A stretch of 59,330 nucleotides of DNA. Source: a bacterium (GTDB lineage: Bacteria > Sysuimicrobiota > Sysuimicrobiia > Sysuimicrobiales > Segetimicrobiaceae). The stretch is taken from NCBI GenBank assembly GCA_035308905.1, contig DATGFS010000044.1, positions 1-59,330 of the forward strand, written 5' to 3'. The translations under genes and the position numbers were made by a program. Of this stretch, positions 5,176 to 39,713 are shown one piece after another; positions within the stretch are counted from its first letter, which is position 1; every line of letters begins with the position of its first letter. The notes beneath the pieces were generated by a model. The model did no database searches. It saw nothing but the letters and a program-made list of their open reading frames with translations, and had not been told where the DNA came from.

Positions 5176-5177
5176 CG

Positions 5178-7659: not shown

Positions 7660-7698
7660 TTCACCGCTTGATCGTACCCCAACGGCGGGCACACGGAC

Positions 7699-8868: not shown

Positions 8869-8873
8869 CGCGA

Positions 8874-12936: not shown

Positions 12937-12948
12937 GGATCCCGCCCC

Positions 12949-15036: not shown

Positions 15037-15051
15037 GCCCGTCAACTCCTC

Positions 15052-17058
15052 TCAGAATGTCACGCCGGTCGAGATCCACAACTGGTTGCCCTCGCTGCTG
15101 AATCCGTAGTCGAGCCGGAACGGTCCGAAGCCGGTCCTGATCGCGATGCCCAGGCCGTAGTCGTAATGGGGCGTGAAGTTGAAACCGCCGCCGAACGGCT
15201 CGGTGTCCCCGGCGTCGGCGAAGACGATGCCGGTTAGTCCCGTAAACGTGTGGAGCAGCGGCAGGTTGCTGATCGGAAAGTGATATTCGCCGGTGAGGAG
15301 CACCATCTCGTCGCCGCGAAACCGTCCCGACGCGTAGCCGCGCAGCGTGTTTTGTCCGCCGAGGTAGTACTGTTCTTGCAGCGGCAGCGGGCCGCTGGCC
15401 GCGCCCAGGTGGGCGTGTCCGACGATCGTGGTGCCCGGGGATACCGGGAAAAAGCGCGCGTAGTCCAGCTCGTACTTCTGGAAGCTGAAGTTGCCGCCGA
15501 GCGCGGTGAGCGCGGATTCGACGCTCAGCGTGACGTGCTCGCCCGTCGTGGGGTCGAGCGGGTCGTCGCGGGTGTCCTTGATCGCGCCCAGCACGAGCGC
15601 GGTCACGGTGCCCGGTGTGAAGACGAACGCGGCGGGCGGGCTGGTCCCGACGAACGGCTGGCCGAACGTCGTGTTCACGTACTTCAGACCGTACGACAGC
15701 GTGTACGGCGAGTTCCGCCTTCCCGTCAGCGGCTGCGCGAACGAGATGCTGCCGCCGGTCTGGTACATGTTGTAGCTGAACGCGTTGTTGAGCCCGAGCG
15801 AGTAGTCCGTCGGAATCGAGACGATGTTGTAGATCTGCAGGTCCATCGCCGTGCGCGTCCCGATGAAGTAGGGCTCGTGGAACTGCAGCGTGTAGCCGCC
15901 GCCGTTCAGCGCGCTGCTGTTGTACTGCGCCAGCACGGACTGGCCGTTGCCGCCGAAGTCGCTGTCCTTGTACGAGAGGATACCCTGCAGGCCGACCGCG
16001 GTCTGATAGCCGACGCCGAAGCCGACGGAGGCGGTCTTCTGCTCGGTCACGATGAGCGTCACGTCGACGGTGTCCGGCGTGGTGCCGGGACCCGGCTGCG
16101 CCTTCACGTCGGAGAAGTACTGCAGCTGGAAGAGCCGCTTGAGGCTCGCGTTGACCTCGTTGGCGTTGAACACGTCCCCGGGCGCAAACGACAGCTCGCG
16201 CCGCACGACGAAGTCCTTGGTCTTGTGCAGGCCCTCGATCTTCACGGCTTCGATCCGGCCCTCGGCGAGGGTGACCGTGAGGACGCCCTGGTCGCTGATC
16301 GCCACGTCGGAGACGCGGGCCAGAATGTACCCCGCGTCCTGGTAGAGCTTCTCCACGGCGCGGGCGCCTTCGCGGATCGCGACAGTGTTGAGGACCTGCC
16401 CCGTCTGCACCCCCAGCGCCTTGACGATGGCGTCCGTCGGCTCGACGGTGTTGCCCTTCACGGCGACGGACGTGACGACGGGGTTCTCCACGACGATGAA
16501 GATGACTCGCACGCCCTCGGGGACAGGCTCCAGCCGCACGACGGCGTCCGCGAACAGGCCCGTCGCCAGAATCGCCTGGACGTCGTTTCGAACCCGCTCT
16601 TCGTTCAGCGGGTCGTTCGCCTTGGTTGAGACGGCGCTCAGCACCTGCTCGGACGGCACGTGCACGTTGCCCTGCACGACCACCTCGACGACCCGCTGGG
16701 GCGGTACGACCTGCGGCGGCACGCCGGGCTGCGGCACGAACGGTGACGGCGCGACGGGCCCCGGCGGCGGCACCGGAACGGAGGGCACCGGCGATGTGGG
16801 CGTCACCGGCGCCGCGGGCGACGTCGGCGTGACGGGTGACGCCGGCGTGACGGGTGATGTCGGGGTGACCGGCGCGGCCGGCTGCGTCGGGCTCGGCGGC
16901 GCCTGGGCGCGCAGCACCGGCGCCAGCCACTGCCCGGCCGAGAGGCCGGCGAGCCCGGGCGCGAGCACCAATGCCACCCCCAGCAGCAGCGCGCGAGACG
17001 CCGCCGTCCCGAGCACGCGCATTTGTCCCTGTCTCCTGTCGTCCTTGGGTGCGGTCAC
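15052..17058 (-). CDS. bamA: Outer membrane assembly protein BamA
   Basis: An Omp85 protein of 668 residues. A signal peptide (about 13-42) is followed by a Pro/Thr/Val/Ala linker (about 51-122) with 6-residue repeats of the VTPTSP type. I count about three POTRA domains (123-345), starting VVEVVVQGNVHVPSEQ, then a 16-strand barrel of the surface-antigen type. The barrel has the L6 motif LRGYASGRF (VRGF/Y class) and ends in a terminal Phe (ISTGVTF). E. coli BamA has five POTRAs. The GTG at 17058 has GGAGG five bases upstream; an ATG at 17022, also preceded by GGAG, is an alternative. It folds outer-membrane proteins together with the OmpH-like genes downstream. Confidence 0.93.
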   Translation of the reverse strand: MTAPKDDRRQGQMRVLGTAASRALLLGVALVLAPGLAGLSAGQWLAPVLRAQAPPSPTQPAAPVTPTSPVTPASPVTPTSPAAPVTPTSPVPSVPVPPPGPVAPSPFVPQPGVPPQVVPPQRVVEVVVQGNVHVPSEQVLSAVSTKANDPLNEERVRNDVQAILATGLFADAVVRLEPVPEGVRVIFIVVENPVVTSVAVKGNTVEPTDAIVKALGVQTGQVLNTVAIREGARAVEKLYQDAGYILARVSDVAISDQGVLTVTLAEGRIEAVKIEGLHKTKDFVVRRELSFAPGDVFNANEVNASLKRLFQLQYFSDVKAQPGPGTTPDTVDVTLIVTEQKTASVGFGVGYQTAVGLQGILSYKDSDFGGNGQSVLAQYNSSALNGGGYTLQFHEPYFIGTRTAMDLQIYNIVSIPTDYSLGLNNAFSYNMYQTGGSISFAQPLTGRRNSPYTLSYGLKYVNTTFGQPFVGTSPPAAFVFTPGTVTALVLGAIKDTRDDPLDPTTGEHVTLSVESALTALGGNFSFQKYELDYARFFPVSPGTTIVGHAHLGAASGPLPLQEQYYLGGQNTLRGYASGRFRGDEMVLLTGEYHFPISNLPLLHTFTGLTGIVFADAGDTEPFGGGFNFTPHYDYGLGIAIRTGFGPFRLDYGFSSEGNQLWISTGVTF
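16786..16869 (-). repeat. 18-bp tandem repeats in the bamA linker
   Basis: Imperfect 18-bp units encode repeats such as VTPTSP, VTPASP, VTPTSP and VTPTSP, with one AAP insertion, at about residues 64-91 of BamA. They form a proline-rich flexible spacer between the signal peptide and the first POTRA. Such repeats can change in number by slippage, which would change the spacer length. Confidence 0.7.
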
Positions 17059-17669: not shown

Positions 17670-18299
17670 CTACTCCACCGCCGGACGCGGCCGGAGCGCC
17701 GGCGCGAACATCTCGCGGAGCTTCCGCAGCACCTGCTGCTGGAGGCGGTAGAAGTGTGACAGGCTGATCTTGAGTTCGTCGGCGATGCGACCCGGTTCCT
17801 CCGCCGCGAGAAACGCCCCGACCAGAATCCGGCGTTCGCGCGCCGGCAGCCCGTCGATCGCCGCGACGATCTGGCGCACGAGCACCGCATCCTCGACGGA
17901 CGCGAGCGCGTCCGCGGCGGCCGCATCGGGCACCTTCGCAAGCGCCTCCGCGGCGTCCTCGACGTCCGCTCCCCGCCCCCGCTCCCGCCGCAGCGCGTTG
18001 AGGATGCGGCCGCGAATGCGGTAGGTCGCAAACGTACTGAACCGCACGCCGCGATCCGGATCGAATCGCTCGACGGCCTGGATCAACCCGACGGTGCCTT
18101 CCTGGATCATGTCCATCAAGACGGCCTCGTGGAGCCGCAGCGCCATCGCCACTTTGAACACCAGCGGCTGATAGGCCTCGATCAGGCGCGCGCGGCTCCG
18201 GCGGTTCCCGCGCTGCTTGTAGGCCTGCCAGAGACGCCGCTCCTCGGCCGGGCGCAGAAGCTCGACCTGGTGCAGTTCGCGCAGGTACTCGTTCAGCAC
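17670..18299 (-). CDS. RNA polymerase sigma-70 family factor (group 3-like)
   Basis: A sigma factor of 209 residues. Region 2 is clear: LIEAYQPLVFKVA, then DMIQEGTVGLIQAVERFD and FSTFATYRIRGRILNALRRE. The YRIRG pattern recalls the FliA/WhiG/SigF group more than ECF factors. After an acidic linker, region 4 has the helix-turn-helix PGRIADELKISLSHFYRLQQ. Region 3 appears to be missing or much reduced. The GTG at 18299 is preceded by an imperfect purine-rich sequence. It heads the envelope operon (bamA, ompH, lpx, lpt) and may control envelope genes. Confidence 0.8.
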   Translation of the reverse strand: MLNEYLRELHQVELLRPAEERRLWQAYKQRGNRRSRARLIEAYQPLVFKVAMALRLHEAVLMDMIQEGTVGLIQAVERFDPDRGVRFSTFATYRIRGRILNALRRERGRGADVEDAAEALAKVPDAAAADALASVEDAVLVRQIVAAIDGLPARERRILVGAFLAAEEPGRIADELKISLSHFYRLQQQVLRKLREMFAPALRPRPAVE

Positions 18300-18381: not shown

Positions 18382-21300
18382 TTAGAACGGGAAATGCGTC
18401 AGCAGGAAGAATCCGTTGTCCCCCAATGTGTCCACGTCGTACGAGAAGGACATGCTCGGGCTCACGAGGTACTCGAGCCCGAGCACAGTATAGGACTGCC
18501 CGGCCAGCGTCGGCCGCGTGTACGGACCCGGCAGCACCGTCGGCGTCGAACCGGGCGACGTCGCCTGCGCGAACACCTCGGTCAACGTCACGTAGAACTT
18601 GGCCGTGAGAAACTTGCCGATCCGCAGCGTCACCGGGCTCTGGGTGTCATAGGAGACCGTCAGCTCGTCCAGGTGCAGGGCCCGCTGAATCGCCGAGGTC
18701 ACGGACCCGATCAGCAGCCGCCCCAGCTCCCGTCCCGCAAGCCCGGTCGGCGTTCCGGCTTCGCCGGTCGCGCCGAACACGAGCGCCAGGATGTCGCTCT
18801 GGCTCATCGGCGGCTCGGAACTCCACACCACCGACGGGTTGGAGAGCGGTCCCGCGACGTCCACGAACACGCGGGTATCGCCGATCTGACCCTGGGCCCG
18901 CGCCGTCACGAGCGGCGTGAGCCCGAGGCCTTCCGAGAACGTCGCCCGCCCCTCGAGCACCGTGAACGCGGTGCCGAAGAGGTTCACGCTGCCGCCGTCG
19001 GACCTGACCTCACCGGAGAGCTTGGGCTGGGCCAGCGTGCCGCCGGCGTGGACGCTGCCGGTGAGCGCGAGCTGTACGGGGCCCTCGCCGTACGACACGG
19101 CGGCGCCGGTCCCGACGGTGACGTCGAGATTGACGGGCGGCGCCGGCGTCTGCGCGAGCGGCGCGCCGCCGCCGGGCACCGACCCGGCGTAGGTCACGCG
19201 GCCGCCCGACACCGTCACCCCGCCCGAGAGCAGCGGGCCGCCGGCCGGTCCTTTCAGCGCGAGGTTCGCGTCGACGCGGCCGGTGTACACCCCGGGCACG
19301 TCCACGTTCAGCTGCCTGGCGGTCAGGCCCAAGTCCAGCGTCTGAGGCCGGAAGTTGCTCACCGCGGCGGTGCCCTGGATCGCCAGATGCCCGCCTCCGA
19401 TGTCGGCCGAGACGTTGTGCACTTCGACCAGATCGTGGGAAAACGTGATGTTCGCGGCGATGTTCTCGAGCGGCGTCCGCATCGGCGCCCACCGCATCCG
19501 GCCGCCCGTGGCCTGCACGGATCCGCTCATGGTCGGCTGGGCGACCGTGCCGCCGACCGACACTTCCCCGGCCACCGTGCCGGACGCATCCTGGATCGCC
19601 GGCGTCACGAGCGTCAGAAGGCTCAGGTCGGCGTCCTCGAGGTGCAGCGCGAGCCGGAGCGCGCCGTGAGGATCGAGGGCGAACCGGTCCCCGGCAACCG
19701 GCAGCGTCCCCTCCACCACCAGCCGGTGGCTGCCTTTCGCAAGCATCCCATCCTGAATCGTGATCGTGCCGTTCTTGTAGTAGGCCAGCGCCGCCACCCG
19801 GTCGACCGTCGCGCCGGGCACCCCGGCGTCGCTCGCCTCGAGGGACAGACCGGCGGTCGGATTGGCGGCCGGCCCCGTCCACTGCATCGTGAAATCCACG
19901 CTGCCGACGAGCGGCTGCTTCAGATGGAAGATCGGCACGAAGATCGCCGGGTCGAGACTGCTGGCAGACAGCTCCACCGCGCTGGTGCCGTTGAGGCTGA
20001 CCTGGCCGCGGGCCGCGATGCTGCCGCGCCCCGGATGGAGCTCAAACACCCGGATGTCGATCGCGCCGTGGCTCAGCACCAGGTCCGCGGCCCCCGTACC
20101 GGCCGGCACGCCGCCGATGCTGGCGCCGCTGAGCGCCAGTGTCAGCTGCGCCGACGGATCGCGCAATGGCCCGGCCAGCGCGACGTCCCCGTCGATCAGC
20201 CCCTCGACCTTCGCCGGCAGCCGCAGTCCCGCGGCGTCGACCAGCGTGGCGATGCGGCCGTGGGTGACGTGGAGGTTCAAATCGGCGGCCGGCTCGCCCA
20301 CCCAGGACACGCTGCCGGTCAGGCTGTAGCTCGCATCGCCCTGCACAAGATCGAGCGGCGAAAGCCGGACCTGGCCGCTGCGGTAGTCCACGATCCCGGA
20401 TGCGGAGAACGCCTGCCCCCGCATCCACAGGTCCGGCGACAGGAGACGGCCCTGGAACTCGGGGTCGGCGAGCGTGCCGGTCACGCGGCCGTCCACCGTG
20501 ACCGTGCCGTACGGCACGACGCCGAACCGGGTCAACAGGGACACGTCGGCCAACCGGATGCGATCGGCCTGGAAATTGAGATCGAGCGGTCCGCGGGGAT
20601 CCACCGTGCCGGACGCGTGCACGTACGAGCCGTTGGCCCGCGCGTCGAGCCGGGTCACCTGGATCACCCCGCCGCCGCCGGCCAGATCGGCGTCGGCCTG
20701 ATCGACGATCTGTCCGAGCACGCTGCCTCGCGTCAGCGCGACGTAACCGGCCACGGACGGACGGTCGACCGGACCGTTGACGCGCACGCGCCCGGAGAGC
20801 GTGCCGGTCACCGTGTCGATGCCGACTGTGTCGCGGAGGAAGGACTGCGCCGGCACGCCTTCCGCGTCGATCGCCACGTCCCGGGCGATCAGCGGCCGCA
20901 GCGCGAGCGCGCCGCTCACCCCATAGTATGCGCCACCGTTGTAGAGGTCCGCGTGGGTCGTCGACACGAGGCCGGAGGTCGCGTTGAGGGCGCCGGTTGC
21001 GAAGGTGTACGACAGCGGACCGAACCGGCCGTCCCAGGCCGCGACAGCACCCGACAGCGCCGGCGACGCCATGCTTCCGCCGATGTGGCCGTCGAACCGG
21101 CCGGTGCCGCTCAGTTCGGACGGCGCGAGCCCGGTCCGCGCGGCGACCGTCCCGAGGGGCAGGTCGTGGCCTTCGGCGGCCAGCGCGAGCGTCCCGTCCG
21201 GCGCGATGGACCCCGACGCGTAGACGGTCGCGGGTCCGGCTTGAACGCGGAGGTTGTCGAGAAGCAGCGACCCGTTGTCGTCCCAGAACAGCGCGGTCAG

Positions 21301-22803
21301 GCTGTCGAAGGTCTGTCCGCCGAGGCTGCCCCGGCCGAGCGAGACGTCTCCGAGAACCTGCATCCGGGAGCCCTGCCCCACGCCGGCGACCGCGCCCGAC
21401 CCGCGCGCGGTCAGGCCGTCCGCGATCGGCAGCCCCGCGCGGGGAAGCGTCGCGGCGTCCACGTTGTCCGCCGTCGCCGCAAAGGTGTAGGAAGGCTGCG
21501 CGGGCGAGAGGTTGACGACCGCGTCGCCGGCGAGGCGTCCGTCGCCCACACCGACCGACAGGTCCCGCAGTGACAGCACGCCGTCGTCATAGGCGAACCG
21601 CGTGGTGAGGCCGGCGAAGTCCTGACGATTGAAGCGGCCGTCGGCGGCCGCCACGGTGCCCGAAAACGAGGGGGCGCTGACCGGACCGGAGATCCACATG
21701 TCGCCGGTCGCCCGTCCGGCCAGCGTCATGCCGGTGCCCGGGAAGAACAGCGTGCGTGCGCGCGCGAGGTCGAGGCGCTGCGAACGGACGACGAGGTTCA
21801 GCCACGGATCGCCGGCGTACGAGACGTCGCCGCGCACCCACACCGGCGAGTCGCCGGCGACGAGCGTCAGACCGTCGGTGGAGACGTGCCCCGACGTGAC
21901 CTGCATCTCGCCGCGTACGTGCCGGAGGCCCGTCGCGGCCGGCCGGTAGAGGGTGTCCGCGTCGTCGAGCCGGATCGACGCGGTGTAGTCGACGTTGACG
22001 CCGGCCGCGGAGGGCGACGCGAGCAGGTGGACGCGGCCGGAGAACTGCCCGCCAAGCCACCGCAGCGCGCGAAGCCGGACGAGATACCCTCCCCAGTGCC
22101 GTACCGATCCCCGATCGACGGTGATGTCGAAGTCATAGGTGCCGTCGACCGCCGCATAGCGGCCGTGCACCGCGGCCTGCTCGCCGTCGGTGCTGCGGCC
22201 GCCGAGCGCGATCACCAGCCGGCCGTCGGACCCTGAGGTCAGCGTGCCGTCGATGCGTTCGAACCGCGTGACAAACGGCGGCGACTCCACCCCCCAGGAA
22301 TCCGCGTAGGCGATGACGCCGCCGTGCACGACGATCAGCCCGTGGAACGCCGGGCCGAGCGGACTCTCCTGCTGCAGGAGCAGGTCCGTGAGGTTCCAGT
22401 TTCCGCGGGTGTCACGCACGAGCTCCGCGTGCGGGGTGGTCAGGTCGGCGCGGCTGACGCTCGCCAGCACGTCCCGCGGATGCCGGACGAGATCCCACAG
22501 CGACAGGGTGAGGTGGACGCGGTCGACCGAGAACGCCGCACCGCGGCTGAAGCCGCCCCGCTCGGCGATGACCAGATCGCGCAGCTCGATGCCGTCGACG
22601 AGGTTGCCGCCGACCCCGCCGAGCGCGACCGCGCGGCCGAGCGAGTGGCCGAGACGCGAGACGATCGCCTGACGGATCGCATGCGCCATCCAGCCGCTCG
22701 AGACCACTCCGGCCCACCCGGCGCCCGCGAGGACGGCGAGCACCGCGAGCGCGGCGATGCCGCGACGGATCAGCCGGACGCGCGCAGTCGGCGGTGAGTT
22801 CAT
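18382..22803 (-). CDS. tamB: TamB-like (DUF490/AsmA-type) translocation protein
   Basis: A very large protein of 1473 residues. One N-terminal signal anchor (IRRGIAALAVLAVLAGAGWA) is followed by more than 1200 residues of repeating beta strands of the kind SLRDLSVGVGDGRLAGDAVV, a hydrophobic-groove beta-taco. It ends in a C-terminal TamB domain (SEPPMSQSDILALVFG, GRELGRLLIGSVTSAIQRAL) that closes with LTHFPF. TamB spans the periplasm and is linked to outer-membrane protein insertion and phospholipid transport. The ATG at 22803 is 34 bp downstream of an S55 gene. No tamA is in the window, so BamA could be its partner, as proposed for other phyla. Confidence 0.88.
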   Translation of the reverse strand: MNSPPTARVRLIRRGIAALAVLAVLAGAGWAGVVSSGWMAHAIRQAIVSRLGHSLGRAVALGGVGGNLVDGIELRDLVIAERGGFSRGAAFSVDRVHLTLSLWDLVRHPRDVLASVSRADLTTPHAELVRDTRGNWNLTDLLLQQESPLGPAFHGLIVVHGGVIAYADSWGVESPPFVTRFERIDGTLTSGSDGRLVIALGGRSTDGEQAAVHGRYAAVDGTYDFDITVDRGSVRHWGGYLVRLRALRWLGGQFSGRVHLLASPSAAGVNVDYTASIRLDDADTLYRPAATGLRHVRGEMQVTSGHVSTDGLTLVAGDSPVWVRGDVSYAGDPWLNLVVRSQRLDLARARTLFFPGTGMTLAGRATGDMWISGPVSAPSFSGTVAAADGRFNRQDFAGLTTRFAYDDGVLSLRDLSVGVGDGRLAGDAVVNLSPAQPSYTFAATADNVDAATLPRAGLPIADGLTARGSGAVAGVGQGSRMQVLGDVSLGRGSLGGQTFDSLTALFWDDNGSLLLDNLRVQAGPATVYASGSIAPDGTLALAAEGHDLPLGTVAARTGLAPSELSGTGRFDGHIGGSMASPALSGAVAAWDGRFGPLSYTFATGALNATSGLVSTTHADLYNGGAYYGVSGALALRPLIARDVAIDAEGVPAQSFLRDTVGIDTVTGTLSGRVRVNGPVDRPSVAGYVALTRGSVLGQIVDQADADLAGGGGVIQVTRLDARANGSYVHASGTVDPRGPLDLNFQADRIRLADVSLLTRFGVVPYGTVTVDGRVTGTLADPEFQGRLLSPDLWMRGQAFSASGIVDYRSGQVRLSPLDLVQGDASYSLTGSVSWVGEPAADLNLHVTHGRIATLVDAAGLRLPAKVEGLIDGDVALAGPLRDPSAQLTLALSGASIGGVPAGTGAADLVLSHGAIDIRVFELHPGRGSIAARGQVSLNGTSAVELSASSLDPAIFVPIFHLKQPLVGSVDFTMQWTGPAANPTAGLSLEASDAGVPGATVDRVAALAYYKNGTITIQDGMLAKGSHRLVVEGTLPVAGDRFALDPHGALRLALHLEDADLSLLTLVTPAIQDASGTVAGEVSVGGTVAQPTMSGSVQATGGRMRWAPMRTPLENIAANITFSHDLVEVHNVSADIGGGHLAIQGTAAVSNFRPQTLDLGLTARQLNVDVPGVYTGRVDANLALKGPAGGPLLSGGVTVSGGRVTYAGSVPGGGAPLAQTPAPPVNLDVTVGTGAAVSYGEGPVQLALTGSVHAGGTLAQPKLSGEVRSDGGSVNLFGTAFTVLEGRATFSEGLGLTPLVTARAQGQIGDTRVFVDVAGPLSNPSVVWSSEPPMSQSDILALVFGATGEAGTPTGLAGRELGRLLIGSVTSAIQRALHLDELTVSYDTQSPVTLRIGKFLTAKFYVTLTEVFAQATSPGSTPTVLPGPYTRPTLAGQSYTVLGLEYLVSPSMSFSYDVDTLGDNGFFLLTHFPF

Positions 22804-22837: not shown

Positions 22838-24691
22838 TCAGTGCGTCCCTCCCTTGGCGATCACGATGGGAAGCTGAACCCGGCCGCGCACGACCCACGG
22901 CGTCGTCCACTGCGCCGACGGTCTCGCCGGCGCTGCGCCGGCGCTGTCCGTCCGCGGCGGCAGCCCGCCCATCAACTCGACGACGACGTCGGTATTCTTG
23001 TCGCCGGTCTCAAAAGCCTTGACGGCGTCGGCCAGCGTGCGCACACCGGCGTTCGGGGGGCCGGGCGGAGCGGCGGCCGCGCCGGCCGGCGCTCCGCCGC
23101 CCGCCCGGACGACGATCGTCGTCGGCCCCGCGACCGCGTTCGCCGGAATGGTCAGCGCGACGTCCTGCGTCTGCGGCGCGGCGCGGAACGGACGGACCGT
23201 GACGCGGACATGCACCGTGTCACCGGGGGCCACCGGGTCGTGCGGTCCGGTCGCCTCGACGATCGACGCCGTCTCCTGCGCGGATGTCACGCGGACGTCC
23301 AGATCGATCGACGTCGGGCCGACGTCCTTGAAGTCGTTGTCGAACAGCAGGTTCATCGCCTGCGGCAGCTCGGCGAGCGCGCGCCCGGCGATCCCGCTCG
23401 AGCCGTAGAACATGTTCTCGCGGACGACCGGCTTCGACAGTCCGCGCCCGTAGAGCGCCAGGCGCACCATCGCGGTGCCCTGCCCGCTGCGGTTCAGGGC
23501 GCGCTCGATGGCGCCCTGCGAGCCGACCTGGACCACGATCGGCGCGATTTCCGTGTTCGGAATCACCTGGAAATTGTAGGTGTGATCGGCGCCGCTGTCC
23601 GCGTCGATCACGTGGACGCGGACCCCAAACATGCGCGGCAGGACGCCGATCGTGCCGCCGATCCCGGCCGGTCGGTCCTGCGATACGATGCCGACCGGCG
23701 CGCCGACGGCGCCGATCTTGATGTTCTGCTGCTGCCCCTGCACGACCTGAAAGATCTTCGCGTTCATGAGAAGGTAGCCGGCGGGCCCGATGCCGGTGAA
23801 CGGATGCCCGAACGCGAGGATCCGGTTGCCGTCCCGGTACGTCATGGTGCCGATGGCGTAGGCCGCGATGTCGCCCTTCAGCAGCGCGACGCCGATGGCG
23901 CTGCCCGGCTCGAGCGGCAGGGATGCGGGAACGTTCGCCTCCGATCCGCCGGCGACCGGCGTGAGCCCCATCGGCGCGAGGACGTTCGCCAGGGCCTGAA
24001 GGCCCGCGCCGCCGATGCCCGACACGAACAGCGGCGTCTCCGCGGGAACCGCGACGAGCGTGTCGCGGAGGAACGGGCGCGCGCCCCGCGCCGCCGCCGC
24101 GGCGCCGCCCGCGGCTGGGACGACCACGCGGCGGACGATGCGCCCGGCGAGGCGCGTGGGAGCCAGCGCGTAGACGCGCGGCACGGATGTGGCGGCCGCG
24201 AGCCGGCCGCCAACCGTGAAGCCAACGCTCGACTGGGCCGGTGCCGGCAGGACGCGCAGCATGTCTTCGATCGGGGTGAACAGCCCGACGGTTGGGTCGG
24301 ACGCCTGGAACGTATACGAGAGGGCGCCCGCAAGTTTGCCTTCGAGGTAAATGGGACTGCCGCTCATGCCCGCGGCGATTCCACCGACGCTCTGAATCGC
24401 CGGGCCCGACGCCCGAAACAATACGAGGTCGCCCGCGGGACCCGCGTTGTGCAATATCCCCAGTACCCGGACGTTGAACGGGACGACGGACGTCCCGATG
24501 ATGACGGTCTTCCCGACGCCCGTCATGCCGACCGCGATCGCGTGCGCCGGCATGATGGCGGGCGCCGCCACGCCCGGCGTGGCGATCATCCCGAGCCCAA
24601 GCACGGATACGGCAACGAGCACGGCCGCGGCGCGCGTCCCGGCGGCCATGGAATCAACGCGGGCGGCCCCTCTGGCCGGCTGTCTCGTCAC
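22838..24691 (-). CDS. SpoIVB peptidase S55-domain protein (copy 1)
   Basis: An exported protein of 617 residues with a signal peptide (about 20-43). It shows the S55 pattern: PAHAIAVGMTGVGKTVIIG, VRVLGILHNAGPAGD, GGIAAGMSGSPIYLEG with the probable catalytic serine, and downstream RILAFGHPFTGIG. The C-terminal 250 residues contain Ig-like beta segments. SpoIVB is a sporulation signalling protease; homologues of this type occur in non-sporulating diderms with unknown substrates. The GTG at 24691 overlaps the stop of the paralogous copy as GTGA. Where copy 2 has VVHG, this copy has VIIG, so the catalytic set may differ. Confidence 0.75.
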   Translation of the reverse strand: MTRQPARGAARVDSMAAGTRAAAVLVAVSVLGLGMIATPGVAAPAIMPAHAIAVGMTGVGKTVIIGTSVVPFNVRVLGILHNAGPAGDLVLFRASGPAIQSVGGIAAGMSGSPIYLEGKLAGALSYTFQASDPTVGLFTPIEDMLRVLPAPAQSSVGFTVGGRLAAATSVPRVYALAPTRLAGRIVRRVVVPAAGGAAAAARGARPFLRDTLVAVPAETPLFVSGIGGAGLQALANVLAPMGLTPVAGGSEANVPASLPLEPGSAIGVALLKGDIAAYAIGTMTYRDGNRILAFGHPFTGIGPAGYLLMNAKIFQVVQGQQQNIKIGAVGAPVGIVSQDRPAGIGGTIGVLPRMFGVRVHVIDADSGADHTYNFQVIPNTEIAPIVVQVGSQGAIERALNRSGQGTAMVRLALYGRGLSKPVVRENMFYGSSGIAGRALAELPQAMNLLFDNDFKDVGPTSIDLDVRVTSAQETASIVEATGPHDPVAPGDTVHVRVTVRPFRAAPQTQDVALTIPANAVAGPTTIVVRAGGGAPAGAAAAPPGPPNAGVRTLADAVKAFETGDKNTDVVVELMGGLPPRTDSAGAAPARPSAQWTTPWVVRGRVQLPIVIAKGGTH

Positions 24692-26505
24692 GGCACGCTC
24701 CCCTTCACGGTCATCGGAATTTGATACTTGCCGAGCACGACCCAGTCGGTCTCGAGCGTGGTGCCCGCCGGCGACTCGAAGCTGGGATTCGCGTTGGCGC
24801 CCACCGCCGTCAGCACAGCCTCCGGCACCAGCTGAATGATCAGGTCCGTGTTCTTGCCCTCATTCTCGAACTGGTCGATCGCGGCTTGGAGCGATTCGGC
24901 GCCGCTCGGCGTGCTCTCGGCCGCGACGAGCGCCTGGAACTTGTCCGCGGGCAACGACGAATCGTTGAGCGAGCCCGCGGTGCCGACGAGCAGAAACGCC
25001 GCGCCCTCCGGGAAGTCCTTGGGCACCGTAAACGTGACCGTCCGGGTCTCGGCCTGCTCGCCGCCGAACGGCCGTACCCGCACCTCGATCTGCACGCGGT
25101 CGCCGGGGTGCACCGTCCGGAGGTTCGGCCGCGCGCCCACGAGCAGCGCCATGTTGGTTTTGGTGGTCACGGCGACGTCGACCGTCATGTCGACCGGGTC
25201 GAGCTCGCTGAAGAAGTTGGTGAAGAGCAGCTGCGTCGCCGCGGGGATGTCGAGCGCAGCGGCCGTGGCGATGTCGCCGACGTCGTAGGCCAGGTCCTCC
25301 CGTACGACCGGCGATTTGAGGTTCCGGGCCCGCAGGCTGATGCGGACCGCGGCGGAGCCGCCCGCGACCCGGTCAAGCCCCCGCTGGATGAGGCTCAGCA
25401 CGGCGCTCGGCACGAGGCTCTCGGCCAAGTCCTGGCGCCGCACGACCTGCGCGCCGAACGAGTGCGCGGCACCGGTGTCGAGGTCGCGGGTATTGACCCG
25501 GATCGCAAACGCCCGCGGGAAGCGCCCGAGCACCCCGGCGATCCCGGTCGTCCGGTCCTGCGTCAGCGTGCCGGTCGCCGGCCCAAAACTACCCTCTTTA
25601 AATGGAAAGTCCAGGGAGCGCACGATCGTGTCGATCCAGGCGCTTGTCATGAACAGGGAGGCGGCGCCGGCGTTCATGAGCGGATGGCCGAAGCCGAGCA
25701 CCATGTTGCCGCGCCGGTACGTCGCCGTGCCGATCGCGCCGACTTCCACGTCGCCGCGCACGAGCTCGACGCCCAGGGACGCCCCAGGCTCCATCGGCGG
25801 CGCGGTGAAGTTCCGGCCCCCGGAGTAGCCTTGGCGCGGCACGAGGTTGAACCGCCGCAGCGCGCGCTCGAGTACCCGCATGCCGCCGGGCGTCACGCCG
25901 GCGGCGGTCATCGGCACCATCGCCGGGGCCACCGCCGCGGTCCCCGGCGCGGCGTGCGCGTTGTAGGCCGCCGCGGCGGCGGTCGATCCGACGACGATGA
26001 CGCGGCGGAGCGGACCGAACGATGTCGCGATCGGCGCGTCGCTCCGGTACTCGCGCGGCCATAACGTCTGCGGAGCCGGGACCGGCGCCGCCAGCGTCTT
26101 GAGCATCTGCTCGATCGGGGTCGCGAGGCTCAGGTCCGCGTCGGGGCCGGGAAAGTGGTAGCCGTACGAGAGCGCGCCGGCGAGACGCCCGTTGAGGTAG
26201 ATCGGGCTGCCGCTCATCCCGGACGCGGTGCCGCCCGCCCCCGTGATCAACGGGCCGCCCGCGCGGAACAAGATCAGGTCCGTGTACGTGTCGCCTTCGC
26301 CCTTCAGCACGCCGAGCACGTTGATGTCGAACCGTTGAATGGCCGTGCCGTGGACGACGGTGAGCCCGTACCCCCGCATCCCGGCGTGGACGGCGGAGAG
26401 CGGCAGCACGGCCTGCGGATCCGCGCCGGCCGGCGGCAGCCCGGCCGTCACCAGGCTCATGCCGACCGCGACCATCGCCGCCACCGCACGCATCATGCCG
26501 CGCAC
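24688..26505 (-). CDS. SpoIVB peptidase S55-domain protein (copy 2)
   Basis: An exported protein of 605 residues with a signal peptide (about 5-28). Its architecture matches the next gene: LSAVHAGMRGYGLTVVHG, INVLGVLKGEGDTYTD, GGTASGMSGSPIYLNGRLAG with the probable nucleophile serine, and MVLGFGHPLMNAG, followed by beta-rich C-terminal regions. The two proteins are paralogues from an old tandem duplication, since identity by eye is clearly partial. The GTG at 26505 has GGAGG six bases upstream; an in-frame ATG at 26496 is an alternative. Both copies sit just before tamB, which suggests an envelope quality-control or processing role, by inference. Confidence 0.75.
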   Translation of the reverse strand: MRGMMRAVAAMVAVGMSLVTAGLPPAGADPQAVLPLSAVHAGMRGYGLTVVHGTAIQRFDINVLGVLKGEGDTYTDLILFRAGGPLITGAGGTASGMSGSPIYLNGRLAGALSYGYHFPGPDADLSLATPIEQMLKTLAAPVPAPQTLWPREYRSDAPIATSFGPLRRVIVVGSTAAAAAYNAHAAPGTAAVAPAMVPMTAAGVTPGGMRVLERALRRFNLVPRQGYSGGRNFTAPPMEPGASLGVELVRGDVEVGAIGTATYRRGNMVLGFGHPLMNAGAASLFMTSAWIDTIVRSLDFPFKEGSFGPATGTLTQDRTTGIAGVLGRFPRAFAIRVNTRDLDTGAAHSFGAQVVRRQDLAESLVPSAVLSLIQRGLDRVAGGSAAVRISLRARNLKSPVVREDLAYDVGDIATAAALDIPAATQLLFTNFFSELDPVDMTVDVAVTTKTNMALLVGARPNLRTVHPGDRVQIEVRVRPFGGEQAETRTVTFTVPKDFPEGAAFLLVGTAGSLNDSSLPADKFQALVAAESTPSGAESLQAAIDQFENEGKNTDLIIQLVPEAVLTAVGANANPSFESPAGTTLETDWVVLGKYQIPMTVKGSVP

Positions 26506-26580: not shown

Positions 26581-26602
26581 ACGAGGGGGAGGCCCCCCTC
26601 GT
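26581..26602 (-). terminator. Intrinsic terminator after the lipoyl-like gene
   Basis: In the transcript sense, ACGAGGGGG-GCCT-CCCCCTCGT is a perfect 9-bp stem with a 4-base loop, followed at once by the T-rich ATTGTTTAT. It lies 24 bp after the stop of the small secreted gene and before the S55 copy 2 gene. The small gene is therefore likely its own transcription unit, with at most partial read-through. Confidence 0.8.
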
Positions 26603-26626
26603 CACCACTCCCGAGTGCGGCCCCCG

Positions 26627-26956
26627 CTATTGGGCCTCGATCACGGCCACGGGGTCGCCGATGTTGACGAAATCGCCGACCCGCACCATCATCTGAATGA
26701 CTTTACCGTTGGCCGTCGCCCGGGCCGCCGGAATGGCGCTGCCGGTCGACGTGCGCACGAACACCAGCGTGTCGCCGAGCTTCACGGCTTGACCGACGAC
26801 GGCAAGCTGCAGCGGCAGCACCGAGCCGGAGATGCCCGACCGGACCACGACGTTCGGGGCGGTCTGCGCCGACGCGGTCGTCGTGCCCAGCGGGGGCAGG
26901 CCGGCGAGAACCAGGGCCACAAGCGCGATTCCCACAACACCGGCGATCCGGCGCAT
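26627..26956 (-). CDS. Small secreted biotinyl/lipoyl-domain-like protein
   Basis: About 109 residues: a clear signal peptide (MRRIAGVVGIALVALVLAGL, cleavage near ASA-QT) and then a single barrel-sandwich (lipoyl-like) domain. The two halves are VVVRSGISGSVLPLQLAVVG with VKLGDTLVFV, and ATANGKVIQMMVRVGDFVNI with GDPVAVIEA. The hairpin that carries the modified lysine in biotin or lipoyl carriers (xxMKM) is here Thr/Ser/Gly (FVRTSTGSAIPAA), so it is probably not biotinylated or lipoylated. I chose the ATG at 26956 for its signal peptide and the AGAGGTGG before it; a GTG at 26965 is possible. It resembles stand-alone hairpin domains of membrane fusion proteins. Function unknown. Confidence 0.7.
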   Translation of the reverse strand: MRRIAGVVGIALVALVLAGLPPLGTTTASAQTAPNVVVRSGISGSVLPLQLAVVGQAVKLGDTLVFVRTSTGSAIPAARATANGKVIQMMVRVGDFVNIGDPVAVIEAQ

Positions 26957-27001
26957 GTTCACCACCTCTCAACCGCTTGAATATATGCCCGCGGCCGCAT
27001 C

Positions 27002-27031
27002 ATTATAGGCGCGGCCGGCTTTGACTGTCAA
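27002..27031 (-). promoter_or_regulatory. Consensus sigma-70 promoter
   Basis: On the minus strand TTGACA (27031 to 27026) and TATAAT (27007 to 27002) are both perfect hexamers, separated by 18 bp. The start site should fall near 26994, about 38 bp before the ATG of the lipoyl-like gene. The -35 lies within a perfect palindrome TTTGAC-T-GTCAAA (27020-27032) and overlaps the wecB stop codon. This is the strongest-looking promoter I found in the window. Confidence 0.88.
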
Positions 27032-28203
27032 ACGCGGAATTCGTCTGGTAAGTTCCGCTCGAATCCGAAGTGGTGCCGCAGCACGCCGACGATGCGCTCG
27101 GCCGCGCGGCCGTCGCCGTACGGATTCCGCGCCCGGCTCATCCGGGCGTACGCGTCCGCGTCGGTGAGCAGCTCGCGCGCCGCGGCGAGAATATCCGCCT
27201 CGCCGGTGCCGACCAGCCGGGCCGTGCCCGCGGTCACACCCTCCGGCCGCTCGGTCGTCTCGCGCAGCACGAGGACCGGCCGGCCGAGCGCCGGGGCCTC
27301 CTCTTGAATGCCGCCGGAGTCCGTCAGGATCAGCGCGGCCGCCTTCATCACCGCCACCGTCGTCGGGTAGTCGAACGGCGCGAACAGGTACGCGCGCGGA
27401 TGGCCGCCGAGGATCTCGTGCGCCGGCCGCGAGACAGTCGGGTTGAGGTGGACCGGAAAGATCAGCGAGAGGTCGCCGAACTCGTCGAGGAGGCGGCGCA
27501 CCGCGCTGAAGATGCGGCGCTGCGGCTCGCCCCAGTTCTCGCGACGGTGGGTCGTCATGAGGAGACGGCGGCCCGGGCGCGCCAGCGCCTCGCGCAGCCG
27601 CGGCTCCGCCGGCGGGGCCTCGCGGCGCGCGACCTCGAGCAGCGCGTCGATCACCGTGTTGCCGGTGACGGTGATCCGCGACCGCGGCACCCCCTCCCGC
27701 TCCAAGTTCGCGCGCGCCGCGGCGGTCGGGGCGAAATGCAGATCCGCGAGGACCGACGCCATCCGCCGGTACATCTCCTCGGGAAACGGCTGGTACTTGT
27801 CGTCCGTCCTGAGCCCCGCCTCGACGTGGGCGACGGGAATCCGGCGGTAGAACGCGGCGAGCGAGCCGAGGAAGCACGGCGCCGCGTCTCCCTGCACGAC
27901 GAGCAGGTCGGGCGCGATCGCCGGCAGCAGCTCGTCGAGCCGGGCGAGCGTGCGCACGGAGATGTCGACGAGCGACTGCTGCTCGGTCATGATGTCGAGA
28001 TCGTAGTCGGGGTGGAGGTCGAACACCTCCAGCACCTGATCGAGCATGTGCCGGTGCTGGGCGGTGACGACGACGACCGGTTTGAACTCGGACGGGACGG
28101 CGGCGAGGGCGCGAACCACCGGCGCCATCTTCACCGCGTCGGGACGCGTACCGAAGACCGCGAGCACCGTCCGGCGGGCGGACGGCCGGCCCGCTCCGCT
28201 CAC
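27028..28203 (-). CDS. wecB: UDP-N-acetylglucosamine 2-epimerase (non-hydrolysing)
   Basis: A GT-B fold epimerase of about 391 residues. It interconverts UDP-GlcNAc and UDP-ManNAc for surface polysaccharide synthesis. Motifs seen are VFGTRPDAVKMAPV, VVTAQHRHMLDQVL, IPVAHVEAGLRT, THRRENWGEP, and TDSGGIQEEAPALGRPVLVL followed by RETTERPEG. Two positions are unusual: VQGDAAPCF where GDT is normal, and FPEEMYRR where PEExNR is usual. The GTG at 28203 is one base after the stop of the WecA-type gene; an ATG at 28236 would overlap it. Together with that transferase it points to a ManNAc-containing glycan. Confidence 0.88.
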   Translation of the reverse strand: MSGAGRPSARRTVLAVFGTRPDAVKMAPVVRALAAVPSEFKPVVVVTAQHRHMLDQVLEVFDLHPDYDLDIMTEQQSLVDISVRTLARLDELLPAIAPDLLVVQGDAAPCFLGSLAAFYRRIPVAHVEAGLRTDDKYQPFPEEMYRRMASVLADLHFAPTAAARANLEREGVPRSRITVTGNTVIDALLEVARREAPPAEPRLREALARPGRRLLMTTHRRENWGEPQRRIFSAVRRLLDEFGDLSLIFPVHLNPTVSRPAHEILGGHPRAYLFAPFDYPTTVAVMKAAALILTDSGGIQEEAPALGRPVLVLRETTERPEGVTAGTARLVGTGEADILAAARELLTDADAYARMSRARNPYGDGRAAERIVGVLRHHFGFERNLPDEFRV

Positions 28204-28204
28204 T

Positions 28205-29431
28205 TCACTGCTCGTTGCTGCCGGCTTCGATGACATGGTCGCCGGCCGCCGGAGCCACCGGCCCGGCGGGAGCGAGCGGCGGGGAGACCGGCGGGCCCGC
28301 CGCCGGCTGCAGATCCGCGGCGGTGGATCCCGCCGTCGCGGCCGCGGGCGACGGGACAAGCAGTCCCGTCCTCCGCGCGCCGAGCGCCAGCAGCGCCAGC
28401 AGGAGGCCGAGGATCGCGATGATCGGGAACCGTCCGACGCCGGTCACCATGAGCGCGCCCGCGCTCAGAATTCCGGTGACGAGGTAGAGCACCGCCGTCG
28501 TCTGGCGGGGCGTCAGTCCGCGCGCGAGCAGCCGGTGATGCAGGTGCTGCGTATCCGCCTCGAAGATCGGCCGGTGGTTGCGCCACCGCCGCACGATCGC
28601 GAAGGCCGTGTCCGTGACCGGAACCCCGAGCGCGGCGAGCGCGACGAGGAGGGACAGCGCGGTGTAGCTCTTGTAGGTGCCGAGCACGGACAGCGCGCCG
28701 AGCAGATAGCCGAGCAGCATCGACCCCGTATCGCCGAGGAAGATCCGCGCGGGGTTGAAGTTGTACGGGATGAACCCCAAGGCGCCGCCGGCGAGCGCCG
28801 CGGCGAGGATCGCCGTCCCGACGTCGCCGCGATGGTAGGACGCGACGAGCAGCGTGGTGCCGGCGATCGCGGCGATCCCGGACGCGAGGCCGTCCACGCC
28901 GTCGATCAGGTTCATCACGTTGCACAGCGCCACGATCCACACCACGGTCACGATCGCGCCGAGCGGGCCGACGAAGAACATGCCGCCGAGCGGGTTCGTC
29001 AGCACGTCCATGCCGACCCCGAACGGCAGCAGGACGGCGGCCGCGGCGATCTGGCCGATGAGCTTGACCAGCGGTCGCGTCCCGCGGATGTCGTCGAACG
29101 CGCCGACCAGCGTGATCACGGTCGCCCCAAGCAGCAGCGCGACGATGGGCCGGTCGATCGCCGGCAGGTACGGCACGACGATCGTGATGCGCTGGGACTC
29201 GAACGCGACGTGAATCGGCCGTTCGACCGGCAGCCCGACGAGCACCGCCGCGACAAAGGCCAGGTAGATGGCGAGCCCGCCGAGCCGGGGCACCGGCGCG
29301 CGGTGGATGTGGCGGCCGCCCGGCCGGTCGAGGACGCCCATCTGCGTCGCGAGCCAGCCGACGACGGGCGTGAGCAGGTACGCGATGACGAGGCCGAAGG
29401 CGCCGGCCACGAGGAACGGGTAGATCGTCAC
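28205..29431 (-). CDS. Polyprenyl-phosphate GlcNAc-1-phosphate transferase (WecA/TagO type)
   Basis: An integral membrane enzyme of 408 residues of the MraY/WecA/TagO family. The catalytic motifs are intact: GAFDDIRG (paired aspartates), NVMNLIDGVDGLASG, FLGDTGSMLLG and the HLHHRL loop that marks GlcNAc-1-P transferases rather than MraY. About eleven hydrophobic segments and a Pro/Ala-rich cytoplasmic tail (about 350-408) are present. It loads GlcNAc-1-P onto undecaprenyl phosphate to start O-antigen-like or teichoic-acid-like glycans. It is followed directly by wecB. Confidence 0.88.
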   Translation of the reverse strand: MTIYPFLVAGAFGLVIAYLLTPVVGWLATQMGVLDRPGGRHIHRAPVPRLGGLAIYLAFVAAVLVGLPVERPIHVAFESQRITIVVPYLPAIDRPIVALLLGATVITLVGAFDDIRGTRPLVKLIGQIAAAAVLLPFGVGMDVLTNPLGGMFFVGPLGAIVTVVWIVALCNVMNLIDGVDGLASGIAAIAGTTLLVASYHRGDVGTAILAAALAGGALGFIPYNFNPARIFLGDTGSMLLGYLLGALSVLGTYKSYTALSLLVALAALGVPVTDTAFAIVRRWRNHRPIFEADTQHLHHRLLARGLTPRQTTAVLYLVTGILSAGALMVTGVGRFPIIAILGLLLALLALGARRTGLLVPSPAAATAGSTAADLQPAAGPPVSPPLAPAGPVAPAAGDHVIEAGSNEQ

Positions 29432-33988: not shown

Positions 33989-36900
33989 TCATCTGAAGTT
34001 CCGGCTCGCGACGTCCGGAACACGCGGTGCAAGACGCGGCCGCCAGAACTCCCGCACGATGACGTGCACGATCTCGTGCTGCCGCTGGATGCGGCCCGTG
34101 ACGCCGAGGAACACCACGGTGCGGGCCAGCCGCGCGAATTCATCCATCACGGCCGGCCAGACGACCAGGTTGACGAAACCGGTCTCATCTTCGAGCGTCA
34201 TGAACGTGACGCCCGACGCGGTGCCCGGCGTCTGCCGGCAGATGACGATCCCCGCGTAGCGGACGGCGGCGCCGTCCCGCATCGCCAGCACCGCCCGGGC
34301 CTCCGGCAGGCCCGCCTCGCGCAGCGCGGAGCGCATCGGCGAGAGCGGATGCCCGCGGGTGCTGTGCGCCGACGCCCGGTAGTCCCACGCGATCTCTTCG
34401 GAGGCGCCGAGCCCGTCGAACAGCGGCGACGGCTCGCGGACCTGGACGGGCAGCGCGATGTCGCGGCGGCGCGCGAGCGCCCGCGCGTCCCACAGCGCCG
34501 TCCGGCGGTCGACGCCCAGCGCCTCGAAGGCGCCGCTCTCGGCAATCTCCACGAGCGAGCCCGCGTCGAGCCGGGTACGGCGGATCAGGTCGTCGAGGGA
34601 CCGAAACGGCTGGACCGCCCGCGCCGCCGCCAGCCGCCGGCCGTCGTCTTCGGCGAGTCCCTTGACGTAGCGAAGCCCCATCCGGACGGCGTGAGCCCAC
34701 GGCCGCGCGGAGGGAGGGGCGGCAGACGTCACCGCGACGGAGCCGGACACGGGAACCGGCTCGAGCGTGCAGTCCCAGCCGCTCACCGTGACGTCGATCG
34801 GACGCACCTCGACGCCGTGCCGCTTCGCGTCGTCGACGATCGTAGACGGCGCGTAGAATCCCATCGGCTGCGCGTTGAGCAGCCCGCACGTGAACTCCGG
34901 ATGATAGTGGCACTTGAGATATCCTGAAGCGTAGGCGATCAGTGCGAAACTAGCAGCATGCGAATTATGAACGATAAGGTCGTTCGCGAGGAAATTATGA
35001 TCGCCCTCGATATGAAGGTCGTAAGTCTCCTCTTCACCGAGCGACTCGACCGCCGTGATTTCGTCCCAGTAGATATCCGAGGTTCCAAGCCGGAGAAGTG
35101 GCGGCGACTTGAAGTAATCACCGAGACGCTTGACCACCCACCTGCGAAAACCTCGCTTCTGACTCACGCGGCCATAGATTTCCCGCATACCCAAACCAGT
35201 CGCTTGAGCCACATCCTTCCATCGCACACCGCTTCGATCGTATTCGCGCCGGATCATAGCTCGCACCGCAATTGGCACGATGTCATGTGACATTCGCCCG
35301 CCGACGTTTCCATTGCGGTCTGTCTGAAATGTCGCCGCGATTTGCGCGGTTCTTCGCTTTGTAGGGTCCAGGAACAACCGGCCGATTTGCTTGTTGAAAC
35401 GGATCACATTCAATGCCCCTGTGATAAGAACAATAAAGATTGTCACAAACCGGTTTCGGTAAGGCCGTGTGTGCGTAGTCAATCGAGAGACGATTCCAAG
35501 TCTTAGCAATAGGTGCTGGACCTGTTCGGCGAGTTGCCGGGATACGGTATCGTACGTTGCGCGGGATCCATGGGTAATGGAAACATGTCCATCACCTTCC
35601 CATAGCCTCGCAAGAAGCAGAGCCAGATCGGTATTCGCCAATTCAAAAACTTCGTCCGGCAAACGCTTCTTGCGGGCCCCAATATTGCGAAGATCTAGAC
35701 GGTCGGCCCACTCAAGCGCCCCACGCCGGCGCCCCATCGACGGAAGTCGACGCGCGGAGGCGATGCGGTCGCCCGGACGCAGTTCATCCAAGCGCCGCCA
35801 CCCGTCCATGGTCAGGAACGGATGCGTTGCCGTTGCAACGACAGAACGCCCCAATGTGGTCCGAAGACAAAAGACCGGTTTCCGGCCGCTACGCATTATA
35901 TGAAGCACCTGTCGCCTACGGATCCGCAGGTCTGAATCGCAGACCAACGTCGTGTTGAGCCGATCCGAATCGCGCGCCGCCTCTTCGATTCTTATCCACC
36001 GCCCTGTAGTCGCATCAATAACCCGCGTATCTCCACCGACGCATTGCGGGAATCCATATTCGCCGAACCCTTTGATCTGAGCAAACACCCGTTCCGCCAT
36101 CTCTTGCGTCACGCCTTTGGCGATCATCGCGGACACGAGTCGGTCGTGGTGACGCTCCAGCCGTCCCGAACGCCGCCACGCCGCCATGTCGCGGCGCAAT
36201 TGATCCGCCTCGCCCGGCGAGTAATCGGCGGCCACCATCGCGATGCGGATCACCTGTTCCTGGAAAATCGGCACGCCGAGCGTTTTGGCCAGCACGGGCT
36301 CGAGCGACGGATGCGGATACTCGACCGGCTCCGCGCCGGCGCGCCGGCGGAGATACGGATGCACCATCCCGCCGACGATCGGCCCGGGCCGCACGATCGA
36401 GATCTGCACGACAAGATCGTCGTAGGTCGTAGGACGCAGGCGCGGCAGCATCGACATCTGCGCGCGGCTCTCCACCTGAAAGACGCCGATGGTGTCGGCG
36501 CGCGACATCATCTCGTACGCCTCACGGTCGCCTTCGGGCAGTGTCGCCATCGACAGCGCACGGCCGCCGGCCGTCCGAACCCCCTGGTCCTCGAGCAGCC
36601 GGAACGCGATGTCGAGGTGCGAGAGCGCCCCGAGCGCGAGCACGTCGACTTTGAAGAGGCCGATGCCTTCGACGCTGTCCTTGTCCCACTGGATCACGGT
36701 GCGACCGGGCATCGTCGCGTTCTCGACCGGCACGAGCTGCGACACCGGCTCGTGGCCGAGCAGAAAGCCGCCCGGATGGATGGAGAGATGCCGGGGCAGA
36801 TCCTGCATCTCCGCGGCGAGCCGGACAAGGTGCCGATGGGCCGGCCGCGCCGGATCGAGACCGGCGTCGCCGAGCAGCTTCGAGGTGACCTCGTCCTCGT

Positions 36901-38221: not shown

Positions 38222-38231
38222 GCCCATCCGC

Positions 38232-39713
38232 TCATTCCACCCGCCCGTGGAGATACCAGCAGCGGCGCACCTGATCGTAGAACACCCACCACAGCTCTCC
38301 CTCTGCGCCTTCCATAAAATAGTAGGCACGATGCGCCTCGCGCACCCCGCCTTCGCGGGGCGGGGCGGCCCACCATCCGCCGGATATGATGAACGGCCCC
38401 GCGACGGGAGGTGCTTGGGCCTGAAACGGCATCGGCCGCGTGAAGATCCGCCGAACGAGCGGCCGTGTCTCGAGCCGGCGGGGCCGTGCTGAAGACAAAT
38501 GCGCCATGGGCTCCCATCCGAACCGCGCCTCGGGCAAATGCCCGTCCCGCAGCACCGCGCACCGCACTCCCTCGTCGCCGTACCGTGCGCGCAGCCGGTC
38601 GATGGCGCGGGTGCCGGCCTCGAGATTGCGCGCCGGCCGTTCGCCCCGCGCCAGACGGGGATGCTCCGCCCAGAGGGCGAGTTGCTCGGGCGCGGCAGGG
38701 ACGCCGGCGGCGTCCGCGCAGATCTCGGTGACGCCGGCGGCGATCCGGACGGTTTCCATGCGCAGGCGCACGAGGTCGGCCAGCCGCACCGCATCGAGCG
38801 TCGGGGATGCGGGACGGATGACCTGCGCGGCGGCCCACTCCTTCCCAAGCCGCAGGCGTAGATCGAGCGCGGCGAGCGCCTGTCCTCGCGACGCCAGCCG
38901 TGCCAGCAGCGGATGCAGAATGTGCTTGACGATGAACAGGAGACGCTGTGCGTCGGCCTCCGGCGCATCGAGCATCACATGACGGCGCACCGGGTCGATC
39001 GCGGGGCGCGGCGCAAGCGGCGACCACAGATCTCCGGATGCCTGCCGGTGGAGACGTTCCGCCGCCGGCCCGAAGCGCTCCATCAACCCGCCGGCCGGCA
39101 GCCGGAGCAGATCGTCCACCGTCCGCACGCCGAGCCGTCCGAGCGCCTCGAGCATCTCCGGCGGCAGGTGAAGGTCGCGCAGCAAGACACACCGGGCGGC
39201 GGTGCGCTCTTCGTCCGGATCCTTGAACACCCGGATGCCGCGGGCCGCCCGCGCCGCCGCGTACGTGCCGAAGCGCGTGAAACCCACGACGACCACCGCG
39301 TCGTACCCGGCGCGCGCCAGATCGCTCCGAATCCCCTCCGCCCATCCGTCCAGCGACGCGTGCAGACGATCGAGGCCCGACGCATCGAGCCAAAACACGC
39401 CCGGTTCGTCCGGGGCCGGCTCCACATCGGGAGAAAAACGGCGCAGTCTGCCTGCGACCGCATCGACGGCGCGGACGATGTCCGCCGGCGCAACGACCGC
39501 GGCCCGAAGGTCGGGGACGATCGCGAGCGCCGACCCGTAGCGCAGCCCCGGGGCGACGCCGCCTTCCCGCGCCGGCGCGTTGACCCAGAGCACGGGGCTC
39601 TGCGGCAGATCTTCCGCGACGACCGCGCTGGGACGCCGCCGCCACGCCGGGTGATCGCGCAACAGCAGCTGCAGCGGAAGCGCCGGGAGTTCAGCGCAGG
39701 CCAGCCGCTCCAC
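38232..39713 (-). CDS. imuB: ImuB, inactive Y-family polymerase adaptor
   Basis: About 493 residues with the Y-family (DinB/UmuC-like) fold but lacking the catalytic acids. Where active enzymes have DxDxFFAxVE it has ACAELPALPLQLLLRDHPAW, and in place of SxDExxLD it has FWLDASGLDRLH. The HhH region LGRLGVRTVDDLLRLPAG and a C-terminal tail ending YLHGRVE are typical of ImuB. It bridges ImuA, the beta clamp and DnaE2. I chose the GTG at 39713, preceded by GGAAG, overlapping imuA by 23 bp; an ATG at 39728 is the alternative. Its stop lies 4-10 bp before dnaE2. Confidence 0.9.
   Translation of the reverse strand: MERLACAELPALPLQLLLRDHPAWRRRPSAVVAEDLPQSPVLWVNAPAREGGVAPGLRYGSALAIVPDLRAAVVAPADIVRAVDAVAGRLRRFSPDVEPAPDEPGVFWLDASGLDRLHASLDGWAEGIRSDLARAGYDAVVVVGFTRFGTYAAARAARGIRVFKDPDEERTAARCVLLRDLHLPPEMLEALGRLGVRTVDDLLRLPAGGLMERFGPAAERLHRQASGDLWSPLAPRPAIDPVRRHVMLDAPEADAQRLLFIVKHILHPLLARLASRGQALAALDLRLRLGKEWAAAQVIRPASPTLDAVRLADLVRLRMETVRIAAGVTEICADAAGVPAAPEQLALWAEHPRLARGERPARNLEAGTRAIDRLRARYGDEGVRCAVLRDGHLPEARFGWEPMAHLSSARPRRLETRPLVRRIFTRPMPFQAQAPPVAGPFIISGGWWAAPPREGGVREAHRAYYFMEGAEGELWWVFYDQVRRCWYLHGRVE

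Follow-up and report, generated by a model that had tools for sequence, protein, structure and literature searches.

The outer-membrane (OM) gene cluster of diderm Firmicutes and related phyla contains genes without a known role, and the locus described here raises the question of whether one small gene in such a cluster is a unit of its own or the partner of a neighbour. The gene, termed BSD here (26,627–26,956, minus strand), lies in a window of 59,330 nucleotides, that is, the whole stretch of DNA that was analysed, and encodes a 109-residue, apparently exported barrel-sandwich protein of the biotinyl/lipoyl fold without the attachment lysine. No description of this gene was found in the literature searched (open-licence PMC papers). 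As far as that literature shows, a stand-alone, exported, cofactor-free barrel sandwich tied to an S55 (SpoIVB-like) gene in the OM clusters of two lineages is new, the fold itself being known, and BSD would clearly exemplify the use of the biotinyl/lipoyl fold in an exported protein without a cofactor.

The reading frame comprises 109 residues from an ATG that is preceded by GAGAGGTGGTGAAC. The N-terminus is hydrophobic and ends in ASA-QT, which by eye has the look of a Sec signal peptide, probably spanning codons 1–30 (26,867–26,956, minus strand) and cut after ASA (residue 30), and from this we infer export. In the AlphaFold model, residues 1–22 have low confidence and the chain forms a barrel sandwich with block pLDDT values of 87–96 from residue 31 onward, the domain itself occupying residues 34–109 (26,630–26,857, minus strand). 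The model matches the biotin carboxyl carrier domain of Pyrococcus (5gua; Z 12.8, rmsd 1.5, 71 residues), B. subtilis BLAP (1z6h; Z 10.8), a putative efflux protein (4l8j; Z 11.0, rmsd 2.9, 87 aligned residues) and EmrA (4tko; Z 10.8, rmsd 3.2, 88 aligned). The Pfam Biotin_lipoyl profile (PF00364) scores the window protein at 22.0 bits, 0.1 bit short of its cut-off of 22.1, and of five relatives four score above the cut-off (32.4, 35.9, 30.2 and 26.0) and one below it (20.0). The predicted structure and the reading frame thus agree with the single exported-looking domain that the first-pass annotation had described, the signal peptide being called by eye. The gene is under purifying selection (dN/dS of the mature protein 0.07–0.20, 11 pairs); an RNA gene at this place was also considered and rejected, the only Rfam match in the window being a tRNA elsewhere.

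Transcription of BSD appears to start at a consensus sigma-70-type promoter (27,002–27,031, minus strand), TTGACA-18-TATAAT, which matches at 12/12 positions and whose -35 element overlaps the stop codon of the upstream gene WecB. Shuffles of the region yielded 0.1 promoter-like sites on average, and no equal site occurred in 735 other windows on the same strand of the stretch. The 4.0-Mb genome contains 10 perfect promoters (spacer 16–19) including that of BSD, compared with 0 in a reversed-pattern control. By eye, the other nine precede genes of the rpsL-rpsG-fusA, secE-nusG-ribosomal, secD-secF, rpmF-plsX and hpt-guaB type, a GNAT-like gene, two further ORF groups and a tRNA-Met, the last confirmed by ARAGORN and Rfam. 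A special regulon behind the promoter was therefore rejected, since most of the nine precede housekeeping-type genes, and transcription by the housekeeping sigma factor offers the simplest explanation; as the promoter class is common to translation, secretion and purine genes, high expression of BSD is plausible on the strength of its promoter sequence.

Downstream of BSD lies a putative intrinsic terminator (26,581–26,602, minus strand), with a 9-pair stem containing 7 G-C pairs, a loop of 4 and an interrupted T tract, ATTGTTTATA; because of this interruption, the earlier epithet "textbook" is a little strong. Both elements recur in the family of the window (f1): a perfect promoter with a spacer of exactly 18 stands 25–78 bases 5' of the BSD start at 11/11 loci (the window and ten others), no equal site being present in 2704 overlapping background windows on the same strands, and a terminator-like hairpin lies within 110 bases 3' of BSD at all 11 loci, background hairpins of equal score being seen at L057 only (2/295). 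The perfect promoter is confined to f1: it is found at none of the 22 other syntenic loci of the order that were scored, where the best site matches at 11/12 positions (L037), and at 0/50 Negativicutes loci examined. An extended -10 of the cgtatgctataat type recurs, by eye, at the BSD loci of f6; terminator-like hairpins were scored at some loci of f2, f3, f4 and f6, and at 11/50 Negativicutes loci. Thus, the search for homologues with the same promoter layout succeeded within f1 and failed in Negativicutes. The first-pass description of a self-contained unit is appropriate for transcription in f1, where the gene's own promoter and terminator uncouple BSD from the S55 gene, but misleading for function, since the neighbourhood is conserved.

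In that neighbourhood, the gene upstream of BSD is WecB, on the same minus strand, a UDP-GlcNAc 2-epimerase (27,028–28,233; TIGR00236, E 4.1e-137), and downstream, also on the minus strand, are two S55 proteins, S55a, the proposed partner (24,688–26,505, start possibly 26,493; PF05580, E 1.9e-07, 31.8 bits, cut-off 25), and S55b (22,838–24,691; PF05580, E 1.1e-09), followed by TamB (18,382–22,803; PF04357, E 1.4e-41). The region 4,096–17,058, on that strand as well, contains LptF/G, LptA, LptC, LpxI, three OmpH-like proteins and BamA, assigned by profile, and LptB, LpxB, LpxA, FabZ, LpxC and LpxD, assigned by eye; judged by this gene content, the window is an outer-membrane biogenesis cluster (Lpx, Lpt, OmpH, BamA, TamB). 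Between the BamA and TamB genes lies that of a sigma-70-family factor, in which profiles recognise regions 2 and 4 (17,670–18,299). A BSD profile detected the gene in 41/43 genomes of the order; the two genomes without it, G011 (a weak carrier-like match only) and G020 (none), also lack S55 in their assemblies. S55 is the next gene 3' of BSD at 32/33 loci of the order inspected, and the exception, L072 of G013, retains a C-terminal S55 fragment. WecB is directly 5' of BSD at the inspected loci of the order except L055, from a genome of the same genus, where an insertion of genes (9,300–12,600) parts WecB from BSD and the promoter stays with BSD. BSD had been taken to stand alone; this is not supported, as in nearly all relatives it lies in the OM cluster with WecB on one side and S55/TamB on the other. 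The S55 clade of the window includes Terrabacteria group bacterium ANGP1, which is now Candidatus Segetimicrobium genomatis (Sysuimicrobiota), so that the window probably stems from this phylum; several relatives were deposited as Bacillota or Armatimonadetes MAGs.

Outside the phylum, an S55 profile search gave at least 80 named loci. In 14 of the 80 listed loci BSD is directly 5' of S55: eight are Sysuimicrobiota-type, and six are Bacillota (a Negativicutes MAG, a Sporomusaceae MAG, Acidaminococcus, two Phascolarctobacterium and UBA5324). The other 66 lack BSD at E<1e-3; at this threshold, it was found at none of the listed loci of Halanaerobiales, Limnochordia, Synergistota, Bipolaricaulota and Atribacterota, nor at those that group with Armatimonadota in the S55 tree, leaving aside the members of the Sysuimicrobiota-type clade. 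A scan of genome contigs with the single BSD protein yielded no relative. With a joint profile, BSD scored 105–121 bits in five of seven genomes, against at most 41 for everything else there, biotin carriers included. Next, 250 genomes were sampled from the class to which the Sporomusaceae genome belongs; since the Negativicutes MAG falls in it too, we call this class Negativicutes. BSD was present in 165 of the 250 (E<=1e-12), scoring 61–121 bits among the matches listed, against at most 41 for the carriers of the seven-genome comparison. Of 53 loci inspected, three were EAMKM carriers from that comparison and 50 were BSD loci of this class (30 given by the search and 20 weaker ones chosen by hand), and at all 50 an S55 gene lies directly 3' of BSD on the same strand, about 40–290 bases away. 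The gene 5' of BSD carries a DUF2233/NAGPA motif at 23/50 loci in a simple motif test with short flanks, and one such protein was confirmed as PF09992. The S55-linked BSD family, as defined here, is marked by scores clearly above those of carriers, a short stand-alone frame and S55 directly downstream.

S55 genes also occur without BSD, being present in 19/20 BSD-less Negativicutes genomes. Fusion of BSD into their larger S55 proteins was considered and rejected, since the BSD profile stayed at noise level at 24 S55 loci of 19 genomes. In several of these genomes (L280, L284, L285 and L286), the serine half of the S55 protein is followed by a charged insert of Ala, Lys and Glu. In a tree of the S55 proteins of 49 of the 80 listed loci, BSD-linked genes fall into two clades, and well-supported branches force at least four changes; the link may be either ancestral with losses or transferred.

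The S55 proteins themselves have invariant GMSGSP and GH motifs in 12/12 aligned sequences. In S55a and S55b, the match to PF05580 is limited to the C-terminal part of the profile, which bears the serine, and lies at the N-terminus of the protein; the conserved GH motif follows about 175 residues after the serine part, so that the halves of the peptidase look permuted, or one half lost. S55a resembles the second barrel of DegP-type proteases, the one that bears the serine: residues 26–140 of its model, which is of middling confidence, align with residues 149–262 of DegP (3otp; Z 10.0, rmsd 3.2, 104 residues). The position of GH far downstream of the serine part makes peptidase activity of S55a uncertain. 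A counterpart is Vpar_0521, a SpoIVB-containing gene of the diderm Firmicutes OM cluster, which like the S55 gene of the window encodes an S55 protein near TamB/BamA/Skp and is described, in the excerpts of PMC5491611 used here, as conserved in diderm Firmicutes and of unknown role. In these excerpts, Vpar_0519 is a DUF2233 protein, and a small barrel-sandwich gene 5' of S55 is not mentioned. The COG3064 label of Vpar_0521 resembles the charged insert of the BSD-less type, and Vpar_0520 is therefore not claimed as BSD.

We give about even chances to the reading that BSD is a cofactor-free periplasmic partner of the adjacent S55 protein in OM assembly of diderm Terrabacteria. The exported protein would work in the periplasm as a dedicated partner of the S55 protein encoded beside it, would contact it physically and would act as its ligand, be it as substrate, inhibitor, activator or structural subunit; in f1 it would be made in molar excess over S55, because the terminator lies between the two genes. 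The reading is favoured by the constancy of S55 downstream in both lineages while the upstream gene differs (WecB versus a DUF2233/NAGPA-type gene), and by the absence of S55 from the two BSD-less assemblies of the order; the purifying selection on BSD, its frequency in Negativicutes, the OM genes of the cluster and the perfect f1 promoter also count in its favour. Against it stand the terminator that cuts off S55 from the strong f1 promoter, a layout absent from all 50 Negativicutes loci, the paralogues away from S55 described below and the lack of a BSD-S55 fusion at the 24 loci. It should be noted that adjacency of the genes does not amount to contact, and that S55 does not need BSD, as the BSD-less loci and genomes indicate. 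Nevertheless, the strong-looking promoter and the adjacency to S55 in two distant double-membrane groups make BSD a candidate part of OM assembly, and the conserved two-gene unit gives the S55 protein of the OM cluster a candidate partner.

The best surviving alternative, which we regard as rather unlikely, is that BSD is an abundant free-standing periplasmic structural protein, for example, an oligomer, a spacer or an envelope filler, and that its adjacency to S55 is only inherited gene order. The promoter class shared with translation genes, the terminator of its own and the ability of S55 to do without BSD would fit such a role, as would a further BSD gene outside the cluster in two f1 genomes (L064, 1,356–1,673; L065, 9,840–10,151), at which neither a promoter nor a terminator was found. 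However, inherited order by itself is an uneasy explanation for an S55 gene that is kept downstream in two lineages while the upstream neighbour changes, and a ligand or regulator role is favoured over that of a free-standing structural protein. Genomes of f2 encode a second, membrane-anchored protein of 214–229 residues with a BSD-like core (L040, 9,596–10,285; also L042, L043, L051 and L052), near genes of FtsH, TilS and histidine-utilisation type by eye; no functional hint was gained from this version or from the f1 paralogues.

SpoIVB is under control during sporulation. A more specific and decidedly speculative version of the S55 partnership, to which we attach a low probability, would make BSD and S55 a periplasmic checkpoint in the OM assembly of diderm Terrabacteria: the abundant cofactor-free lipoyl-fold ligand would engage the Deg-like, possibly permuted serine-peptidase protein and would report on or gate the work of TamB, BamA and Lpt, and S55 would be controlled as SpoIVB is, but with a different ligand.

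Improbable as well is that BSD is a minimal adaptor serving TamB, Lpt or some other machine that spans the envelope, equivalent to the barrel sandwich of a membrane-fusion protein without its helical hairpin. The structural matches to EmrA and the putative efflux protein and the presence of TamB and Lpt genes in the same cluster speak for it, and a periplasmic barrel-sandwich domain is indeed common to BSD and the HlyD/RND/EmrA proteins. Unlike these, however, BSD is one continuous small domain without further domains, and its model contains no helix and thus no helical insert between the barrel-sandwich halves, the hairpin having about 10 residues; neither an inner-membrane porter nor a TolC gene was recognised by eye among the window genes looked at, and many S55 clusters lack BSD.

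There remains the cofactor. BSD shares with biotin/lipoyl attachment domains (about 70 residues) the fold, a similar length and the glycine/valine pattern; unlike them, it has an apparent signal peptide, a hairpin apex variable in length and sequence and no attachment lysine motif, and it is linked to S55 and OM genes rather than to a carboxylase or dehydrogenase, neither a gene of that kind nor a ligase gene being recognised beside it by eye. The hairpin of the window protein contains no lysine, and 76/86 members of the family (36 Sysuimicrobiota-type, 50 Negativicutes) have none at the apex: the count is 0/50 in Negativicutes and 10/36 in Sysuimicrobiota-type members, eight of the ten having TKPRE and two a GTKAV/GLKSV type, with the lysine out of register. 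An MK[ML] or DK motif is present in no hairpin of the 86, the sole match (L235) being outside it; 11 other members have a lysine only on the strand at residue 68, and Arg79 is kept in 79/86. The absence of the modifiable lysine noted in the first pass is thereby confirmed, and homologues carrying it, which would have spoken against that view, were not found among the 86. That BSD truly carries biotin or lipoate, attached either before it is exported or afterwards, is hardly credible and largely refuted by the missing motif, in spite of the fold, the Biotin_lipoyl scores of some members above the cut-off and the lysines near the apex. Elsewhere in the window, a DNA polymerase III alpha-type reading frame (33,989–38,968) appears, by eye, to contain an intein.
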